Source of the DNA: a virus
IMG/VR virus record: IMGVR_UViG_3300028857_000016
Span: 1 to 37,467 of that record
Length of the DNA: 37,467 nucleotides
Reading direction: 5' to 3' (one strand)
The notes under the pieces are model-generated. The model was given only the letters and a program-made list of their open reading frames with translations. It was not told where the DNA came from and did no database searches. Below are positions 29,372 to 37,210 of this stretch, in pieces (the stretch's first letter is position 1; every line of letters begins with the position of its first letter). A program made the position numbers and the translations under genes.

Positions 29372-31360
29372 ATGGAACTCGCACAGCTAGATTTCTGGGA
29401 TGAGCCAACCACGGCAGTAGCGGTGGTTCGGCAGCCGAGCGGAGTGGCTACGGTCAGCGGCGGCGGCAGTATTATCCTGGTGACGGCGGCACCGAAGAAA
29501 CTCGACGTAATGCCGAGCGAATGGCGCGCCAAAGCGCTCCAGAAGCGCGATTTCTGCCGGGCGGTCATCGACTACCAGGAACGCTATCGGTGCAGCCAGG
29601 AGGCCGCCGTAACCACAATAGCGGCCGCGCAGGCGGATCAGTTTCCGGAACTGGCCAAGCGCGGGTTACTGAATTACGCTAATTTTCGCAGTTGGACCGG
29701 CAAAATCAAAGTCGCCAAAGGTAAATTTGACTGGTCGAACACCGAGGCGCTGGCTGACGATTACGGCTGGGGCCAGAAGTCCGAGCGCAAGGGTGATTCG
29801 CGGTACTGGGTGATCTTCTGGGCGCTCTATCTTAACCAAAACACATTATCAGTCAAACGTTGTTTCCAGATGGCCGGAGCCGCCGGTCGCCGGATCGACC
29901 CGTTTATGGCGCTGCCGAGCATCGCCCAGGTGCAATACCAGGTGGCCAATGTTGATAAGCGCGCCCTCTACACTTCCCGGCGCGGCGAAACGTGGGTCGA
30001 GAATAATATGATCACCTACATCGACCGCGACTGGAGCACGGTAATGGCCAATCAGATCTGGGTGGCCGACCATCGTCAATTTGACATGTGGATTCGGACT
30101 TTCGATGAGGGCAAACAAGAATGGGTCCCGGTACGTCCGTGGATTTGCGCTTTCGTCGACGCCAAGAGCTGGCATTTGATCGCCGCCCAGATCGTGGTTG
30201 ACAATCCCAATAATGCCACCATCCGCAAGACGTTGGTCGACGGCATTAAAGCGTTCGGCGTCCCCGCCGGAATCTACAGCGATAACGGCAAGGACTTCCT
30301 GGCCCAGGGCTTTGCGGAACCGGTCAAATTCACGCTCGACGAATCAAATCCGGAAATTTACGCGCATTCGATTCTGGCCGAGCTGGGGATCAGGGTGATC
30401 AAGAGTCTGCCGTATCGCGGCCGCTCGAAGCTGGTTGAACGTTTCTTCGGCGAAGTCAGTCGGAGTTTCGACCGGCTGTTCGGCTCGTATCTGGGTAACG
30501 CTCCGCAGGCGCGGCCGGATTCGGCGCACCTTTACAGCAAGAGCCAGGAGATGACCATGCGGCTGCCGAGTCTGCAACAGTTTTGCGATATCTTCGACGC
30601 CTGGCTGAGAGAATATCACAATACCCCTATGGACGGCAAGATTCTGGCCGGGATGACGCCGGAACAGGCGTTTTCTCCGGAAAAACGCTATGCCAAAGCG
30701 CCGATCAGCGAAGCCCGGCTGTTCTATGCCACGCTGAAGCCGTTGCCGCGTTTGCACACAGTGGCGCGTGGGCCGAGCGTATTTTTCGGCAAACAGGAAT
30801 TCCGGGCGGTCGACCAGGAGGCGCTGTGGCCGTATTTCGAACGTAAAGTCATGGTTAAAATCGACGCCTTCGACCCGGAACATGTATTTGCGTACACGGT
30901 CGACGGCCGGTTGATCTGCGAATGTAAGACCAAGCCTCAGGTGGCCGCGATCGACGGCGACGTCGGTCCGGAAATGAGGTTGCAGTCGCAGCAGAAACGC
31001 ACCTGCAAAACATTGGTATGGAATCTTGCCGGAGGTTTCCAGAATTTATCGCCTTTGCGGGTGGCGGCCTTGACCGGCGACGAGCTGGCGCATCCGGAGC
31101 GGCTGAAGGTGATCGACGCGGTCAGCAGCGTCAAAGGGCCGTCGCACCTGCGGCGGCATCTCGAATTGCCGGGCGACGCGCCGATGGCGACAGACATGCA
31201 ACCGGTACCATTCCGCGAAGATATGAAAAAAGCTGAACTGGCAAAATTCGAACAGACAATTAAGGGGGAATCAGAACCAAAGGTCAGCCACCAGGAATTA
31301 CGGGAATTCAATGCATTCATGACAACCAGGAGGAATAACGAAGATGACGGAAACGAATGA
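29372..31360 (+). CDS. DDE transposase, MuA-like
   Basis: The protein has 662 aa with AGAGGGG before the ATG. The N-terminal about 190 residues are DNA-binding modules. The integrase catalytic core holds D233 (QIWVADH), D304 (IYSDNGKDF) and E356 (KLVERFFGE), spaced 71 and 52 residues, close to MuA (67 and 56). A C-terminal beta-barrel follows (about 420-500), and then a basic/acidic tail that in Mu contacts MuB and ClpX. It catalyses strand transfer at the phage ends during integration and replicative transposition. It overlaps the activator gene start by 17 nt. Confidence 0.95.
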   Translation: MELAQLDFWDEPTTAVAVVRQPSGVATVSGGGSIILVTAAPKKLDVMPSEWRAKALQKRDFCRAVIDYQERYRCSQEAAVTTIAAAQADQFPELAKRGLLNYANFRSWTGKIKVAKGKFDWSNTEALADDYGWGQKSERKGDSRYWVIFWALYLNQNTLSVKRCFQMAGAAGRRIDPFMALPSIAQVQYQVANVDKRALYTSRRGETWVENNMITYIDRDWSTVMANQIWVADHRQFDMWIRTFDEGKQEWVPVRPWICAFVDAKSWHLIAAQIVVDNPNNATIRKTLVDGIKAFGVPAGIYSDNGKDFLAQGFAEPVKFTLDESNPEIYAHSILAELGIRVIKSLPYRGRSKLVERFFGEVSRSFDRLFGSYLGNAPQARPDSAHLYSKSQEMTMRLPSLQQFCDIFDAWLREYHNTPMDGKILAGMTPEQAFSPEKRYAKAPISEARLFYATLKPLPRLHTVARGPSVFFGKQEFRAVDQEALWPYFERKVMVKIDAFDPEHVFAYTVDGRLICECKTKPQVAAIDGDVGPEMRLQSQQKRTCKTLVWNLAGGFQNLSPLRVAALTGDELAHPERLKVIDAVSSVKGPSHLRRHLELPGDAPMATDMQPVPFREDMKKAELAKFEQTIKGESEPKVSHQELREFNAFMTTRRNNEDDGNE

Positions 31361-32381
31361 CAATCAGGAACTCCAAACCCGAAAAATTAACCTCAGTTAC
31401 GAGCACTTTCAGTCCGGTATCGCGCGGTATTCGCCGCACGAAAAAGAACTGCTCGAATGGTTATGGGGTTATGCTCATCAGGCGCTCAATAACTCAGCTG
31501 ATCGGCTGGCGATGGCAGTCGGATGCGATTACAAGGTATTGCTGAATATTTTCAACGGCAAAACCGAGTGCATTCCAGAGGGATTTATTGCCGCTTTCGA
31601 ACGACTGAAAAAGCGCTCGACGCCGGAATCGGTACTGATTCAGACGCCGGTCACGCGCCGGATTGAAGAGGCGCTGAATTATGCCCGCGACTATCACGCG
31701 CTGGTCACCATCGTCGGCCCGACCGGACGCTCTAAGACCTCGACGGTAATGGACTGGCAAATCCGCAACAATCACGGCAAAGCTCGCTATGTCCGGTGCC
31801 CGTCCGGCTGCACGCGCCGTACTCTGGCCACAACGTTATCCCAAAGTTTCGGCATCGGCTCGATCAGTCAGCGGTCGAATACGCTGGAAATGCGGTTAAT
31901 GAACGCGCTATCGCCCCGCAACACGCTGATCATCGATGAGGCGGGACATCTGATGCCGCGACGCAGCGGCGGCGGTACGTTGGCGGTAGAGCTTATTCGC
32001 GATCTGCACGATTGCTGCGGTTGCGGCGTGGTGCTGGTGTTTACCGACGTCTACGTCGACGAAATGCGCAATGGCAACATGAAGGATTATTTCGAACAGT
32101 TCGTCGGCCGGATTAAGTTCGAGCGCCGCATCCCCGCTAAGGTTTTTAAGGACGAAGTACGGGCAGTGGTGGCCAGTTTCCGTCCGAATCCGCCCGAAAA
32201 ACTGGTCGACGAAGCTTGGAAAATCGCCGCCGCCGGCGACGGCAAGTTGCGGACGTTGTTTGAGGACCTCCAGCGCGCCGCCGAATTCGCCCGGATCAAC
32301 AGTCTGGAACTCGACGTCAAAGCGCTGAAATTGTCCGCCGACTGGCGCAAGAGCGGCGGCGTCTGGGATGACGTGGAATAA
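31344..32381 (+). CDS. Transposition activator ATPase, MuB-like
   Basis: The protein has 345 aa with AGGAGG before the ATG. An N-terminal helix-turn-helix-like part (about 50-75, SADRLAMAVGCDYKVLLNIF) precedes the AAA+ core: Walker A GPTGRSKTST (125-134, an Arg where most have Gly/Ala), Walker B TLIIDEAGHL, and a sensor region VVLVFTDVYVDE. This matches MuB, which picks target DNA and stimulates the transposase. Direct translational overlap with the transposase is as in Mu. Confidence 0.93.
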   Translation: MTETNDNQELQTRKINLSYEHFQSGIARYSPHEKELLEWLWGYAHQALNNSADRLAMAVGCDYKVLLNIFNGKTECIPEGFIAAFERLKKRSTPESVLIQTPVTRRIEEALNYARDYHALVTIVGPTGRSKTSTVMDWQIRNNHGKARYVRCPSGCTRRTLATTLSQSFGIGSISQRSNTLEMRLMNALSPRNTLIIDEAGHLMPRRSGGGTLAVELIRDLHDCCGCGVVLVFTDVYVDEMRNGNMKDYFEQFVGRIKFERRIPAKVFKDEVRAVVASFRPNPPEKLVDEAWKIAAAGDGKLRTLFEDLQRAAEFARINSLELDVKALKLSADWRKSGGVWDDVE

Positions 32382-32984: not shown

Positions 32985-33242
32985 ATGAACGACGGCGAAT
33001 ATTACGAACCGACCGAGGCGGAAAAAGAGTACGCGCGCAAGATAGTCGAAAGGGCTAAAATTGCAGGAGAAACGCAGAGAAATCAGATCAATGAACTGTT
33101 TGAACGACTGGAAGCGGAAATAAAGAAAAGCGGTCTGTTATATCAGCTTTATAAAGGCGTTAATTTCGATGAAGTACATAATTACGACGGAAGTGTTATG
33201 TGTTGTATTCCGAGGTCGTTTTACTTCAATTTGACCATATAG
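32985..33242 (+). CDS. Small hypothetical protein
   Basis: The protein has 85 aa from ATG 32985, four nt after the preceding stop, with CAGGAG upstream. It is an acidic, helical protein (TEAEKEYARKIVERAKIAGE, NQINELFERLEAEIKKSGLL) with a short strand-rich end. It might form a coiled coil. No family recognised. Confidence 0.6.
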   Translation: MNDGEYYEPTEAEKEYARKIVERAKIAGETQRNQINELFERLEAEIKKSGLLYQLYKGVNFDEVHNYDGSVMCCIPRSFYFNLTI

Positions 33243-33250
33243 GAGGGGCC

Positions 33251-33928
33251 ATGATGTTGACTGCACCCCAGATAAAAATGATTCACATCGCAAAAACCGC
33301 CGCCGGGATTTCCCAGGAGCGGTACCGCGAAATTTTGCGGTCCGTGGCCGGAGTGGAATCATCCACGGCAGCGGAACTCAATAATCGCGATTGTGACGCC
33401 ATTCTGAAAGCCCTGAAACCACGCCGGGAAAGCGGCTGGCAGGACGGTCAGCTTAAGATGTTCCGGAAGTATGCCGGATACTGCAAGATGGGGCTGGATG
33501 AGGCGCGGCAGCTGCTCTTTCGCGTGACCGATCAGATGAACGAGGAGTCGCCGGGGCTTGATCAACATCAATTTGAGATGGTCATGGCCGAACTGGAAGT
33601 GATGTTGGAAGTGAAAGTCGGTAACGGCACGGTGTCGGTACCGTCCGGCGTTGACCTCGGTCACTGGCGGTCGCGGCTTCCCGGCGCCAAGATCAACAGC
33701 CGTCAAGTTTACGAGATTGAATTGACCTGGTCGGCGTTGCTGCCGTATCTGCCCGAGGACAAGCGTACCAACACATATTTACGGTCGATCCTGGCTTCGG
33801 CGTGTCGCCTCAAATATCTCGACGACATCCAACTGTTATCGGCATTCCGCGCGATCACTGCGATCGAAGCCCTAAAGCTGAGGCTGAAGCAGGAACAGAC
33901 AAAGTTAGCCGAAACGGTACCGTTCTAA
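33251..33928 (+). CDS. GemA-like regulator, Mu gp16 type (DUF1018)
   Basis: The protein has 225 aa (ATG 33251 or 33254, AGGAGGGG upstream). APQIKMIHIAKTAAGISQER, YREILRSVAGVESSTAAELN and LKMFRKYAGYCKMGLDEARQ are the DUF1018 pattern, with a long C-terminal extension. In Mu, GemA modulates host gene expression and gyrase activity in the early phase. It is followed by three stem-loops before the next gene. Confidence 0.85.
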   Translation: MMLTAPQIKMIHIAKTAAGISQERYREILRSVAGVESSTAAELNNRDCDAILKALKPRRESGWQDGQLKMFRKYAGYCKMGLDEARQLLFRVTDQMNEESPGLDQHQFEMVMAELEVMLEVKVGNGTVSVPSGVDLGHWRSRLPGAKINSRQVYEIELTWSALLPYLPEDKRTNTYLRSILASACRLKYLDDIQLLSAFRAITAIEALKLRLKQEQTKLAETVPF

Positions 33929-34691: not shown

Positions 34692-34752
34692 TGATCATGC
34701 AAAGATGGAAAAAGCATTCAAGGCTAAATTCAAAAAGTTGAGGAAATGAGAA

Positions 34753-35097
34753 ATGCCGAATCGAGAACTGACTACGCTTGATGATTATAAAGCGGAACTG
34801 GAAAAGCAAAAGAAGCTAGTCGCCGCCCTTCTGGAAGGAAAACCGTCCGGACTCAATATTCACCAGGCATCAATACTGATGGATGAGTTGGAGCTGGAAA
34901 ATAAGCTTTTCGAGAGGAATAAACAGGAGATGGCAGAAACCATACGCGAACTGGCCGAAGATTTGATGTTCGCTTCCAATTTTACCTGCATCTGGGCGAA
35001 AAATGGTAAAAGTTACTGTGATTATTGTCCGCTCGCGCGGTTAAAATCAGCCGGTCGCCAATATGCCTGCGGCAAAAACAAGGATTTCAGTAAATGA
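34753..35097 (+). CDS. Small protein with Cys cluster
   Basis: The protein has 114 aa with GAGGAAA before the ATG. The N-terminal half is coiled-coil-like (LEKQKKLVAALLEGKPSGLN, ENKLFERNKQEMAETIRELA). The C-terminus has four cysteines in the order C-x10-C-x2-C-x15-C (FTCIW, YCDYCP, YACGK), suggesting a zinc site. It overlaps the next gene by 4 nt (ATGA). Function unknown. Confidence 0.6.
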   Translation: MPNRELTTLDDYKAELEKQKKLVAALLEGKPSGLNIHQASILMDELELENKLFERNKQEMAETIRELAEDLMFASNFTCIWAKNGKSYCDYCPLARLKSAGRQYACGKNKDFSK

Positions 35098-35339
35098 TTA
35101 AACCAATTATCATCAACGGTCAGGCGTTCAGCCTGGAACAATATCCGGGTCGCCTGGCGGTGGTCACGCAGGTCGGCAACATCAATATCAAAACATGGGT
35201 TAATGAGGATGGGCGCGATCATGAAATGATCGTCGCAGGGGAATACAAAAAACTGGCAGGGTTAATCAGTGCCGTCAAGGCGGTCGATGCCGTCAATGAT
35301 CTAACCGGGAGGAATAATCATCATGCCCTAATCGCTTAA
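35094..35339 (+). CDS. Small hypothetical protein
   Basis: The protein has 81 aa, starting within the stop of the previous gene (ATGA). It is beta-rich (MIKPIIINGQAFSLEQYPGR, LAVVTQVGNINIKTWVNEDG) with an Ala/Val helix at the end. It is the last gene before the structured RNA region. Confidence 0.55.
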   Translation: MIKPIIINGQAFSLEQYPGRLAVVTQVGNINIKTWVNEDGRDHEMIVAGEYKKLAGLISAVKAVDAVNDLTGRNNHHALIA

Positions 35340-35381
35340 AAGGCGGGAGGAAACCGGCGCTACCAACGCCGATCCCCCCAG

Positions 35382-35483
35382 AAACGCGACGCTCTACCAC
35401 GTCACGATCCGCTCCGCCAACACACATAGTTCAGTCAAACTACCGTGCGGAGCAGGTCAAGTCAAGAGCGTCGCGTTTTTTTT
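35382..35483 (+). ncRNA. Structured RNA with 14-bp closing stem and T-run
   Basis: AAACGCGACGCTCT (35382-35395) pairs perfectly with AGAGCGTCGCGTTT (35465-35478), followed by a run of Ts to 35483. Inside, GCTCCGC (35411-35417) pairs with GCGGAGC (35447-35453) around a 29-nt loop. A simple intrinsic terminator does not need a 69-nt structured interior, so a small RNA or an RNA switch controlling the downstream methylase genes is possible. Its position between the operon end and the methylase genes also fits a terminator. Confidence 0.6.
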
Positions 35484-35562
35484 GTCGGGAGTAATCGAGG
35501 TAACGAGGAGGCCGCAGCGCCGCGGATCGGCGCGATAATCAAGCGTAATATATGGAGTAATT

Positions 35563-36348
35563 ATGTATGAGCTGGAATTATTTGCAGGCGCGGGCGGCGG
35601 GATTCTCGGTAAAAACCTCATCGGCCTTACCACGGTCGGAGCTGTTGAGATTGAGCCGTACTGTCGCCGCGTGTTGCTCGCCAGGCAGCGCGACCAATGT
35701 CTGCCATGTTTCCCGATCTGGGACGACGTCACCAGTTTCTCCATCGCCAACCCCGACACCCGGGCGTATTTCGAATGGCTCCTCACCATCCGCGACCGGC
35801 TGTGCATCTCCGGCGGGTTTCCCTGCCAGGATATCAGCTCGAGCGGCAGCGGTGCGGGACTCGGCGGTAAAAAATCCGGCCTCTGGTTCGAAATGGCGCG
35901 AATCATTGGCGAAATACGACCGAAAGTCGCATTCGTGGAAAATTCCCCCATGCTCAGTTCTCGCGGCCTCGAAGGCGTGCTCGCTTCACTGGCCGAGATG
36001 GGGTATGATGCAAAATGGTGTGTGTTGGGCGCTGGACACCTCAACTACCCCCTTAAGCGAGACCGGATATGGATACTGGGGGAGCGTGACCAGGACAATG
36101 TCCGGATGGATGCGGCCCCACGCGCGCAAAGAAACGTATTTGAAGGCTACATATGGAGCTCAGAAACAATCCGTGCTATGTCAGATGCTGATCCGGATCG
36201 ACTTGTGGCCGACGGTTACGCTCTGCGAGACCCTGATGGGCTGGCCGGAATCGTGGACCGCGTTAAAGCCATTGGCAACGGACAAGTTCCGGCAGTGGCA
36301 GCGGTCGCATGGGAAATATTAACTGGAGGTATTTATGACAAAGAGTAA
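35563..36348 (+). CDS. DNA (cytosine-5) methyltransferase
   Basis: The protein has 261 aa with GGAG before the ATG. Motif I ELFAGAGGG (residues 5-13), motif IV GGFPCQDIS with catalytic Cys88, motif VI as ENS (126-128, usually ENV), motif VIII KRDRIWIL (165-172) and motif X AIGNGQVPAVAA (about 237-248). The target-recognition part between VIII and X is only about 65 residues, shorter than in most complete enzymes. It overlaps the adenine methylase by 14 nt. Self-modification against host restriction is the likely role. Confidence 0.92.
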   Translation: MYELELFAGAGGGILGKNLIGLTTVGAVEIEPYCRRVLLARQRDQCLPCFPIWDDVTSFSIANPDTRAYFEWLLTIRDRLCISGGFPCQDISSSGSGAGLGGKKSGLWFEMARIIGEIRPKVAFVENSPMLSSRGLEGVLASLAEMGYDAKWCVLGAGHLNYPLKRDRIWILGERDQDNVRMDAAPRAQRNVFEGYIWSSETIRAMSDADPDRLVADGYALRDPDGLAGIVDRVKAIGNGQVPAVAAVAWEILTGGIYDKE

Positions 36349-37210
36349 TACAAGAGCGCCGTTCCCCTGGTTCGGCGGCAAGGGTAATCCAAAAATCAAA
36401 AAAGCGATTCTGGGATTACTGTCGGAGCATGAGTTTTATGTGGAACCGTTCGGCGGCGGGGCGTCGATACTGATCTCCAAACCTGCGGCCAAGGTGGAAG
36501 TTTACAACGACGTCAATCGCGGCGTAGTCAACTTCTTTCGCGTGATCGCCGACGCGGATTACTTCGGTAAGTTCATGGCCAGGGCGGCGCTGTTGCCGGT
36601 CAGCCGGGAACTGTTCGAGGAGTTCGGACGTACCTGGCCGGGCATCCATGATCCGGTGGAACAGGCGGTGAGGTGGTATTATATCGCCCAGCAGAGTTTC
36701 GGCGGTATGTTCGCCAAGTCCTGGGGCACGGCGGTAACCACATCGTCGCGCGGCATGAGCGATACGACGTCGACCTGGCGCGCCTCGTTCGAAAATCTGC
36801 CGAAGGTACATGATCGGATTCAGCGCGTTCAGATTGAGTGTGCCGATTGGCGCGATATCCTCAAGCGCTTCTCCGGAACCGGCTGGCTGGCGTATTGCGA
36901 TCCGCCGTATGTCGCCGGGACGCGAAAGGCTGGCGGTTATGACCATGAGCTCAAGGACAAGGACCATGAGGCGCTGATCGCGGCGCTCCTGGTCTATGAC
37001 GGCGCCGTCGTTTTGTCCGGTTACAACAGTGCGTTATACGCGCCGTTGGCTAAAGCCGGATGGGATCGCCAAGAGATCGAAGTGGTATGCAGCGCCGCCG
37101 GTCGGACCAGGACGTCAGGTCTCCAGGGCGTCGGCAAAGTCAAAGAAAAGCAACAACGGATCGAGAGTATCTGGCGCAATCATGAAGCCATGCGTCGAAT
37201 GAAAAACTAA
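36335..37210 (+). CDS. D12-class DNA adenine-N6 methyltransferase (Dam-like)
   Basis: The protein has 291 aa with GGAGG before the ATG. FPWFGGKGNPK (10-20), the SAM-binding FYVEPFGGGASIL (34-46), then YNDVNRGVVNFF (57-68), and the catalytic YCDPPY (about 186-191) are the D12 order. The last gene before the right terminus, followed by an intrinsic terminator. Methylates adenine, in many relatives at GATC; the target here is not deduced. Confidence 0.92.
   Translation: MTKSNTRAPFPWFGGKGNPKIKKAILGLLSEHEFYVEPFGGGASILISKPAAKVEVYNDVNRGVVNFFRVIADADYFGKFMARAALLPVSRELFEEFGRTWPGIHDPVEQAVRWYYIAQQSFGGMFAKSWGTAVTTSSRGMSDTTSTWRASFENLPKVHDRIQRVQIECADWRDILKRFSGTGWLAYCDPPYVAGTRKAGGYDHELKDKDHEALIAALLVYDGAVVLSGYNSALYAPLAKAGWDRQEIEVVCSAAGRTRTSGLQGVGKVKEKQQRIESIWRNHEAMRRMKN

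Follow-up and report, generated by a model that had tools for sequence, protein, structure and literature searches.

Transcription-terminating riboswitches lie in gene leaders, where a conserved junction domain shares strands with an overlapping terminator. Leader-peptide attenuators (trp, his, erm, tna) place a short open reading frame (ORF) and its Shine-Dalgarno (SD) sequence 5′ of alternative folds and a terminator. Smaller ORFs with an SD also occur at regulatory positions, lambda bar being a two-codon minigene. The axe-txe minigene mg2 is another, and ends in ACT followed by UAA (PMC8708949). In phage Mu, the right-end DNA-modification gene mom is tightly controlled through the C activator, methylation-sensitive transcription and the action of the Com protein on translation. 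The gene is non-essential and is lethal to the cell when expressed at the wrong time, and control of DNA modification is therefore to be expected (PMC4461284).

The window analyzed here, the whole 37,467-nucleotide stretch of an IMG/VR virus record, is Mu-like. It encodes a Mu-type transposase (29372-31360), a MuB-like ATPase (31344-32381) and a protein with a weak GemA match (33200-33928). Its right end consists of two methylase genes on the + strand, a C5-cytosine DNA methyltransferase gene, dcm (35563-36348; Pfam PF00145, 6.7e-29), and a D12-class N6-adenine DNA methyltransferase gene, dam (36335-37210; PF02086, 8.1e-16), whose closest relatives are 61-79% identical. As in Mu, the right end of a Mu-like phage thus holds DNA-modification genes that appear to be tightly controlled; in contrast to the protein-based control of mom, this task seems here to fall to a structured, terminator-bearing leader RNA. 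This element occupies approximately 35307-35483 on the + strand and comprises an SD with a mini-ORF, a strand termed P1a, hairpins P2 and P3, and a terminator that encloses an inner stem, P4; some 80 nt separate its end from the dcm start. Judged from sequence comparison, it is quite probably a cis-acting transcription attenuator with a riboswitch-like layout that holds back the right-end DNA-modification genes of Mu-like Lentisphaerota phages.

The long terminator stem

The terminator stem, T, is formed by perfectly complementary 14-nt arms at 35382-35395 and 35465-35478 (16 bp including flanking pairs) separated by 69 nt. Within this interior, P4 forms a perfect 7-bp stem (35411-35417 paired with 35447-35453), and the 3′ arm runs into eight Ts at 35476-35483, where the transcript is predicted to end. 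The first-pass annotation had described exactly this stem, interior, inner stem and T-run, and folding bears it out: the minimum free energy of 35372-35495 is −49.6 kcal/mol, compared with −26.7 ± 3.2 kcal/mol for 200 dinucleotide shuffles (z −7.2; 0/200 as low). A G+C-rich stem directly 5′ of a T-run, the arrangement of an intrinsic (Rho-independent) terminator, is present in similar form in all 21 elements that we collected. In a swap test on these 21 elements, the arms gave −19.1 versus −8.5 kcal/mol (0/20000). The 69-nt loop makes this terminator invisible to the usual scan.

The earlier two-stem model was correct in that both stems are present. However, it described the terminated state alone and missed the remainder of the element, which begins about 40-75 nt 5′ of the long stem with P1a, P2 and the mini-ORF. 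Nor did it include P3, which competes for the 5′ arm of the long stem.

Relatives and downstream genes

DNA-level searches of phage records identified no relatives of the element, and a search of phages with the region returned methylase fragments only; relatives were therefore sought through the downstream gene. Relatives of the Dam protein, at 61-79% identity, come from Lentisphaeria/Victivallales metagenome-assembled genomes and a few virus contigs. Reading the upstream DNA of these loci revealed a structured RNA with a T-run directly 5′ of the methylase gene in almost all of them, one dam relative (L159) having no such RNA.

Further copies were obtained with two covariance models, R1 and R2. 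At E ≤ 1e-3, R1 matched 11 of 197 Lentisphaeria genomes, while missing the divergent copies L005, L073, L155, L161 and L163. Taking R1 and R2 matches together with cases recognized by eye, approximately 15 of the 197 sampled genomes carry the RNA. The separately built models agree, as R2, built without L153, recovers L153 (E 1.8e-5). The resulting set of 21 elements, each from a prophage or a virus contig with a Lentisphaerota assignment, represents these approximately 15 genomes and five virus contigs, with L154 counted for two copies and with L005 and L163 included by their anatomy as read by eye, without a model match.

Strong matches were restricted to the class Lentisphaeria. Weak genome matches of 17-30 bits were judged to be chance or other repeats, as those that were read showed neither the terminator nor the gene context, with the exception of the second L154 copy. 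Sampling across the phylum yielded nothing convincing beyond Lentisphaeria (one 26.5-bit R2 match, in G203, was left out). R1, which misses divergent copies, found no match in 98 loci of methylase relatives from other phages or in 81 loci of ABC/GNAT relatives, indicating that these genes are not generally accompanied by the RNA.

The genes that follow the RNA are functionally related. Methylase genes (dam, dcm, N4/N6) lie downstream of 20 of the 21 copies, as dam (D12), dcm (C5) or both in either order, and L230 has an N6/N4 methylase gene (PF01555, 5.5e-22) followed by dcm. In several relatives the RNA comes directly after gemA of the transposase-MuB-gemA early cluster. In L154, one copy lies 5′ of dam and another 5′ of dcm. 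The remaining copy, in L215, is followed by a 55-aa ORF and then a predicted 391-aa ABC-ATPase/GNAT protein with a putative role in DNA modification.

This sole non-methylase target (L215:1672-3016; L322:4748-6570) consists of the 55-aa ORF, the 391-aa ABC-ATPase/GNAT fusion and a 216-aa ORF that resembles a formyltransferase by eye. The fusion corresponds to phrog_11143, which is widespread in phages and carries an 'acr candidate' annotation in Porphyromonas phages. It is possible that the cassette serves base modification or counter-defence. Small ORFs 5′ of the RNA also share a cysteine pattern (YCDYCP...CGK at 35005-35085 of the window; HCGNCPF...CPG at L230:1325-1375), and perhaps encode a zinc-binding phage protein.

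The position of the RNA bears on what kind of molecule it is. The first-pass annotation had offered a terminated small RNA, a decoy or a switch controlling methylase expression. A small RNA or decoy acting in trans and ending at 35483 would be in keeping with the terminated leader that the off state should yield, and a short RNA ending near 35483 is explained as that terminated product with no need for a function in trans. All 21 copies keep a fixed position 5′ of cargo genes, and a stand-alone small RNA would not need a helix that competes for the terminator arm; nor does any feature point to a decoy. We consider a trans-acting role very improbable. The switch, on the other hand, is supported by the leader position, the almost invariable association with DNA-modification genes, covariation and two exclusive folds, one of which includes the terminator.

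Known families do not account for the RNA. At the gathering threshold, Rfam searches of the window and nine relatives returned no match except tRNAs, and permissive Rfam searches gave chance-level matches only; there was likewise no Rfam match to the T-box model. A self-cleaving ribozyme and a put-type antitermination RNA were considered and dropped, as no feature supported either. The RNA shares with transcription-terminating riboswitches the leader position, the conserved junction domain and the overlapping terminator built from strands of that domain. As a candidate, it differs in matching no Rfam family and in occurring only in phages of one bacterial class, before phage cargo genes.

Covariation and two mutually exclusive folds

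The upstream half of the element is organized as a three-way junction of P1, P2 and P3. The 5′ strand of P1 (P1a, GGCGGG, 35342-35347) pairs with UCCGCC at 35413-35418, a strand that lies inside the long hairpin. P2 spans 35347-35377, with an upper stem (35355-35359 paired with 35367-35371) closed by the loop CUACCAA. P3 (GACG-CUCUACCA-CGUC, 35388-35403) has its 5′ strand within the terminator 5′ arm. Separately, the gap between terminator and dcm contains a segment, 35516-35532, whose sequence complements each arm of P2 (AGCGCCG with 35355-35361 and GGATCGGCG with 35367-35375), which could be a further alternative pairing or chance.

P1 was proposed by RNAalifold from a plain MAFFT alignment, and it ranked first among helices when all column pairs were scanned. 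Its pairing is kept despite changes of sequence, as GAACGG/CCGUUC in L004, GAUCGG/CCGAUC in L160, GAGCGG/CCGCUC in L011, L162, L214 and L215, GCAGUG/UACUGC in L164 and GGAGCAG/CUGCUCC in L163; it is weak or shifted in L005, L155, L157 and L230. In the upper stem of P2, all five pairs show changes on both sides. Across 14 aligned elements, in an alignment that was fitted to the model and leans to its structure, the covariation score was 0.418 versus 0.211 for shuffled alignments (0/500), 84.7% of cells were paired versus 72.4% shuffled and 39-49% with partners slid, and 37 double-change cells were found versus 12.8 shuffled, with both-sided changes in 13 of 17 pairs. Because these 14 rows were fitted to the model, swap tests on unaligned strands provide a useful second line of evidence, and gave p = 5e-5 for P1 and p = 5.5e-4 for P3. 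The first-pass annotation was to be given up if relatives showed no covariation or conservation; covariation is present in them. A universal ligand-pocket sequence, in contrast, was not clearly identifiable among the elements.

The P1-P2-P3 fold and the terminator exclude each other, because the 5′ strand of P3 is part of the terminator arm and, in the window, the 3′ strand of P1 sits within P4. A simple scan found P3 in 19 elements, in every one of which its 5′ strand shares positions with the terminator 5′ arm. The two remaining elements were read by eye; in one of them, L161, it is the P3 loop and 3′ side that overlap the terminator arm. A conserved, covarying alternative helix that excludes the terminator is the arrangement of a two-state attenuator, and the existence of two states is well supported by the comparison of sequences.

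To relate these states to a growing transcript, we folded truncated versions of the window in a thermodynamic model. When the transcript was cut after P1, the predicted pairing probabilities were 0.84 for P1 and 1.00 for P3. Once P4 was made, P1 was lost while P3 remained at 0.99, and in the full-length window the terminator dominated (p(T) = 0.97). In the same kind of model P1 was weak for the copies with a shorter P1 (L154a, L155, L156, L157 and L230), so that its strength varies. The modeled order of folding is consistent with that expected of an attenuator. As the full-length fold strongly favors the terminator, read-through would need kinetics or a putative binder.

A simpler reading is that of a plain intrinsic terminator with a folded spacer, which would end the early transcript while the methylase genes use their own promoter and the upstream fold stabilizes the released RNA without switching. 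The strength of the terminator (14 bp and eight Ts) and its dominance in the full-length fold suit this reading. However, it has no need of conserved P1, P2 and P3, yet these helices covary, and P3 is kept in competition with the terminator arm. The two copies within one L154 operon, each directly 5′ of one gene, point to control of genes, and the failure to find a sigma-70-like promoter in 34700-35700 speaks weakly in the same direction. We therefore regard a plain terminator as improbable.

In the attenuator mechanism that we favor, polymerase would leave the early genes (transposase, MuB and, in most relatives, gemA) and the nascent RNA would first fold into the P1-P2-P3 junction. If the junction is not stabilized, P4 would form and capture the 3′ strand of P1, the terminator 3′ arm would then capture the 5′ strand of P3, and transcription would halt at the T-run, upstream of the methylase genes. 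A signal that stabilizes P1-P2-P3, which may be a small molecule, a phage protein or the translation state of the mini-ORF, would block the terminator and allow read-through. Phage DNA would thereby be marked only at the right time.

The mini-ORF and the candidate trigger

In the window, the SD GGGAGG (35307-35312) precedes a two-codon mini-ORF, ATG CCC TAA (35323-35331), about 10 nt 5′ of P1a. The end of an 81-aa ORF (35094-35339), for which no relatives were found, contains the mini-ORF in another frame. An SD followed by ATG, 0-3 codons and a stop occurs within 70 nt 5′ of P1 in 14 of 21 elements, against a background expectation of 0.0176 per 70 nt in the same loci, a background count that still includes the true cases. 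In L214 and L215 the ATG is followed immediately by a stop, TTTTGATGTAG, right at the gemA stop, and in L004 the mini-ORF again shares sequence with the end of the preceding gene. A strong SD is retained in most relatives. Seven elements lack an ATG mini-ORF, and three of these (L005, L153 and L154b, the second L154 copy) retain a strong SD with no ATG after it. The stop lies 9-32 nt from P1a, and no codon is common to the elements. In L230, a second SD and mini-ORF (ATG AAG ACG TAG, 2430-2460) occurs before dcm without the full RNA element.

The mini-ORF resembles leader-peptide attenuators in its placement with an SD 5′ of alternative folds and a terminator. It departs from them in having 0-3 codons after the ATG, no shared codon identity and an end 9-32 nt before the structure, and such a frame does not fit a leader peptide on which a stalled ribosome would cover a competing strand. 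It is also similar to the two-codon minigenes, the L155 version (ATG ACT TAA) having the same last codon and stop as mg2, but what follows it is a covarying attenuator rather than a coding start. A ribosome covers about 13 nt beyond the start codon (PMC8708949), and we infer that one on the mini-ORF would at most reach P1a in the window and would stop short of it in nearly all other elements. Ribosomes probably pause or are released at the mini-ORF, immediately 5′ of the RNA, and so protect or insulate it. Guarding or protecting the mRNA in this way is the simplest interpretation, and a mini-ORF ribosome site that shields an mRNA from RNase E is among the cases cited in PMC8708949.

Several triggers for the attenuator can be envisaged. 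The RNA has a conserved, covarying, aptamer-like domain in the leaders of functionally related genes (methylases in 20 of 21 cases), as riboswitches do. It could tentatively represent a new riboswitch class. In this view P1-P2-P3 would recognize a small molecule, such as S-adenosylmethionine, S-adenosylhomocysteine or a signal of infection, and would turn on the methylase operons of Mu-like phages, with the 0-3 codon mini-ORF as a ribosome guard.

Two further versions of the attenuator replace the ligand with other triggers; the likelihoods that we give them are shares of the trigger question and overlap with that of the attenuator itself. The methylase or another phage protein might bind P1-P2-P3 and set read-through. 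The invariable location of the RNA in the leader of the operon to be controlled would allow this, and Mu mom is a precedent for post-transcriptional control, Com being cited as a translation factor in PMC4461284. Direct recognition by the gene product is unlikely, since the proteins encoded downstream of the RNA (D12, C5 and N4/N6 methylases and ABC/GNAT) are of four unrelated kinds; a regulator common to these phages is possible, and we view protein binding overall as somewhat doubtful. Alternatively, initiation, termination or release of a ribosome at the mini-ORF might pick the fold with no ligand. The enrichment of the mini-ORF and its short spacing to P1a would favor such sensing of translation. 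The predicted ribosome footprint, which falls short of P1a nearly everywhere, the elements without an ATG mini-ORF (even where the SD is retained) and the absence of a common regulatory codon lead us to rate it as unlikely.

A limited literature search found no description of this RNA. Attenuators and riboswitch candidates are of a known kind, while the RNA family, its role in phage DNA modification and its pairing with a 0-3 codon mini-ORF appear to be new. The element adds a new RNA family in which ligands can be sought, as well as a natural case of a 0-3 codon mini-ORF conserved beside a transcription switch. The marking of phage DNA must be timed, since marking too early may harm the cell and marking too late exposes progeny to restriction. 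Mu achieves this timing with several proteins and a methylation-dependent promoter, whereas in the phages of Lentisphaerota a covarying RNA attenuator, reused before three unrelated types of methylase and one other cargo gene, seems to suffice.
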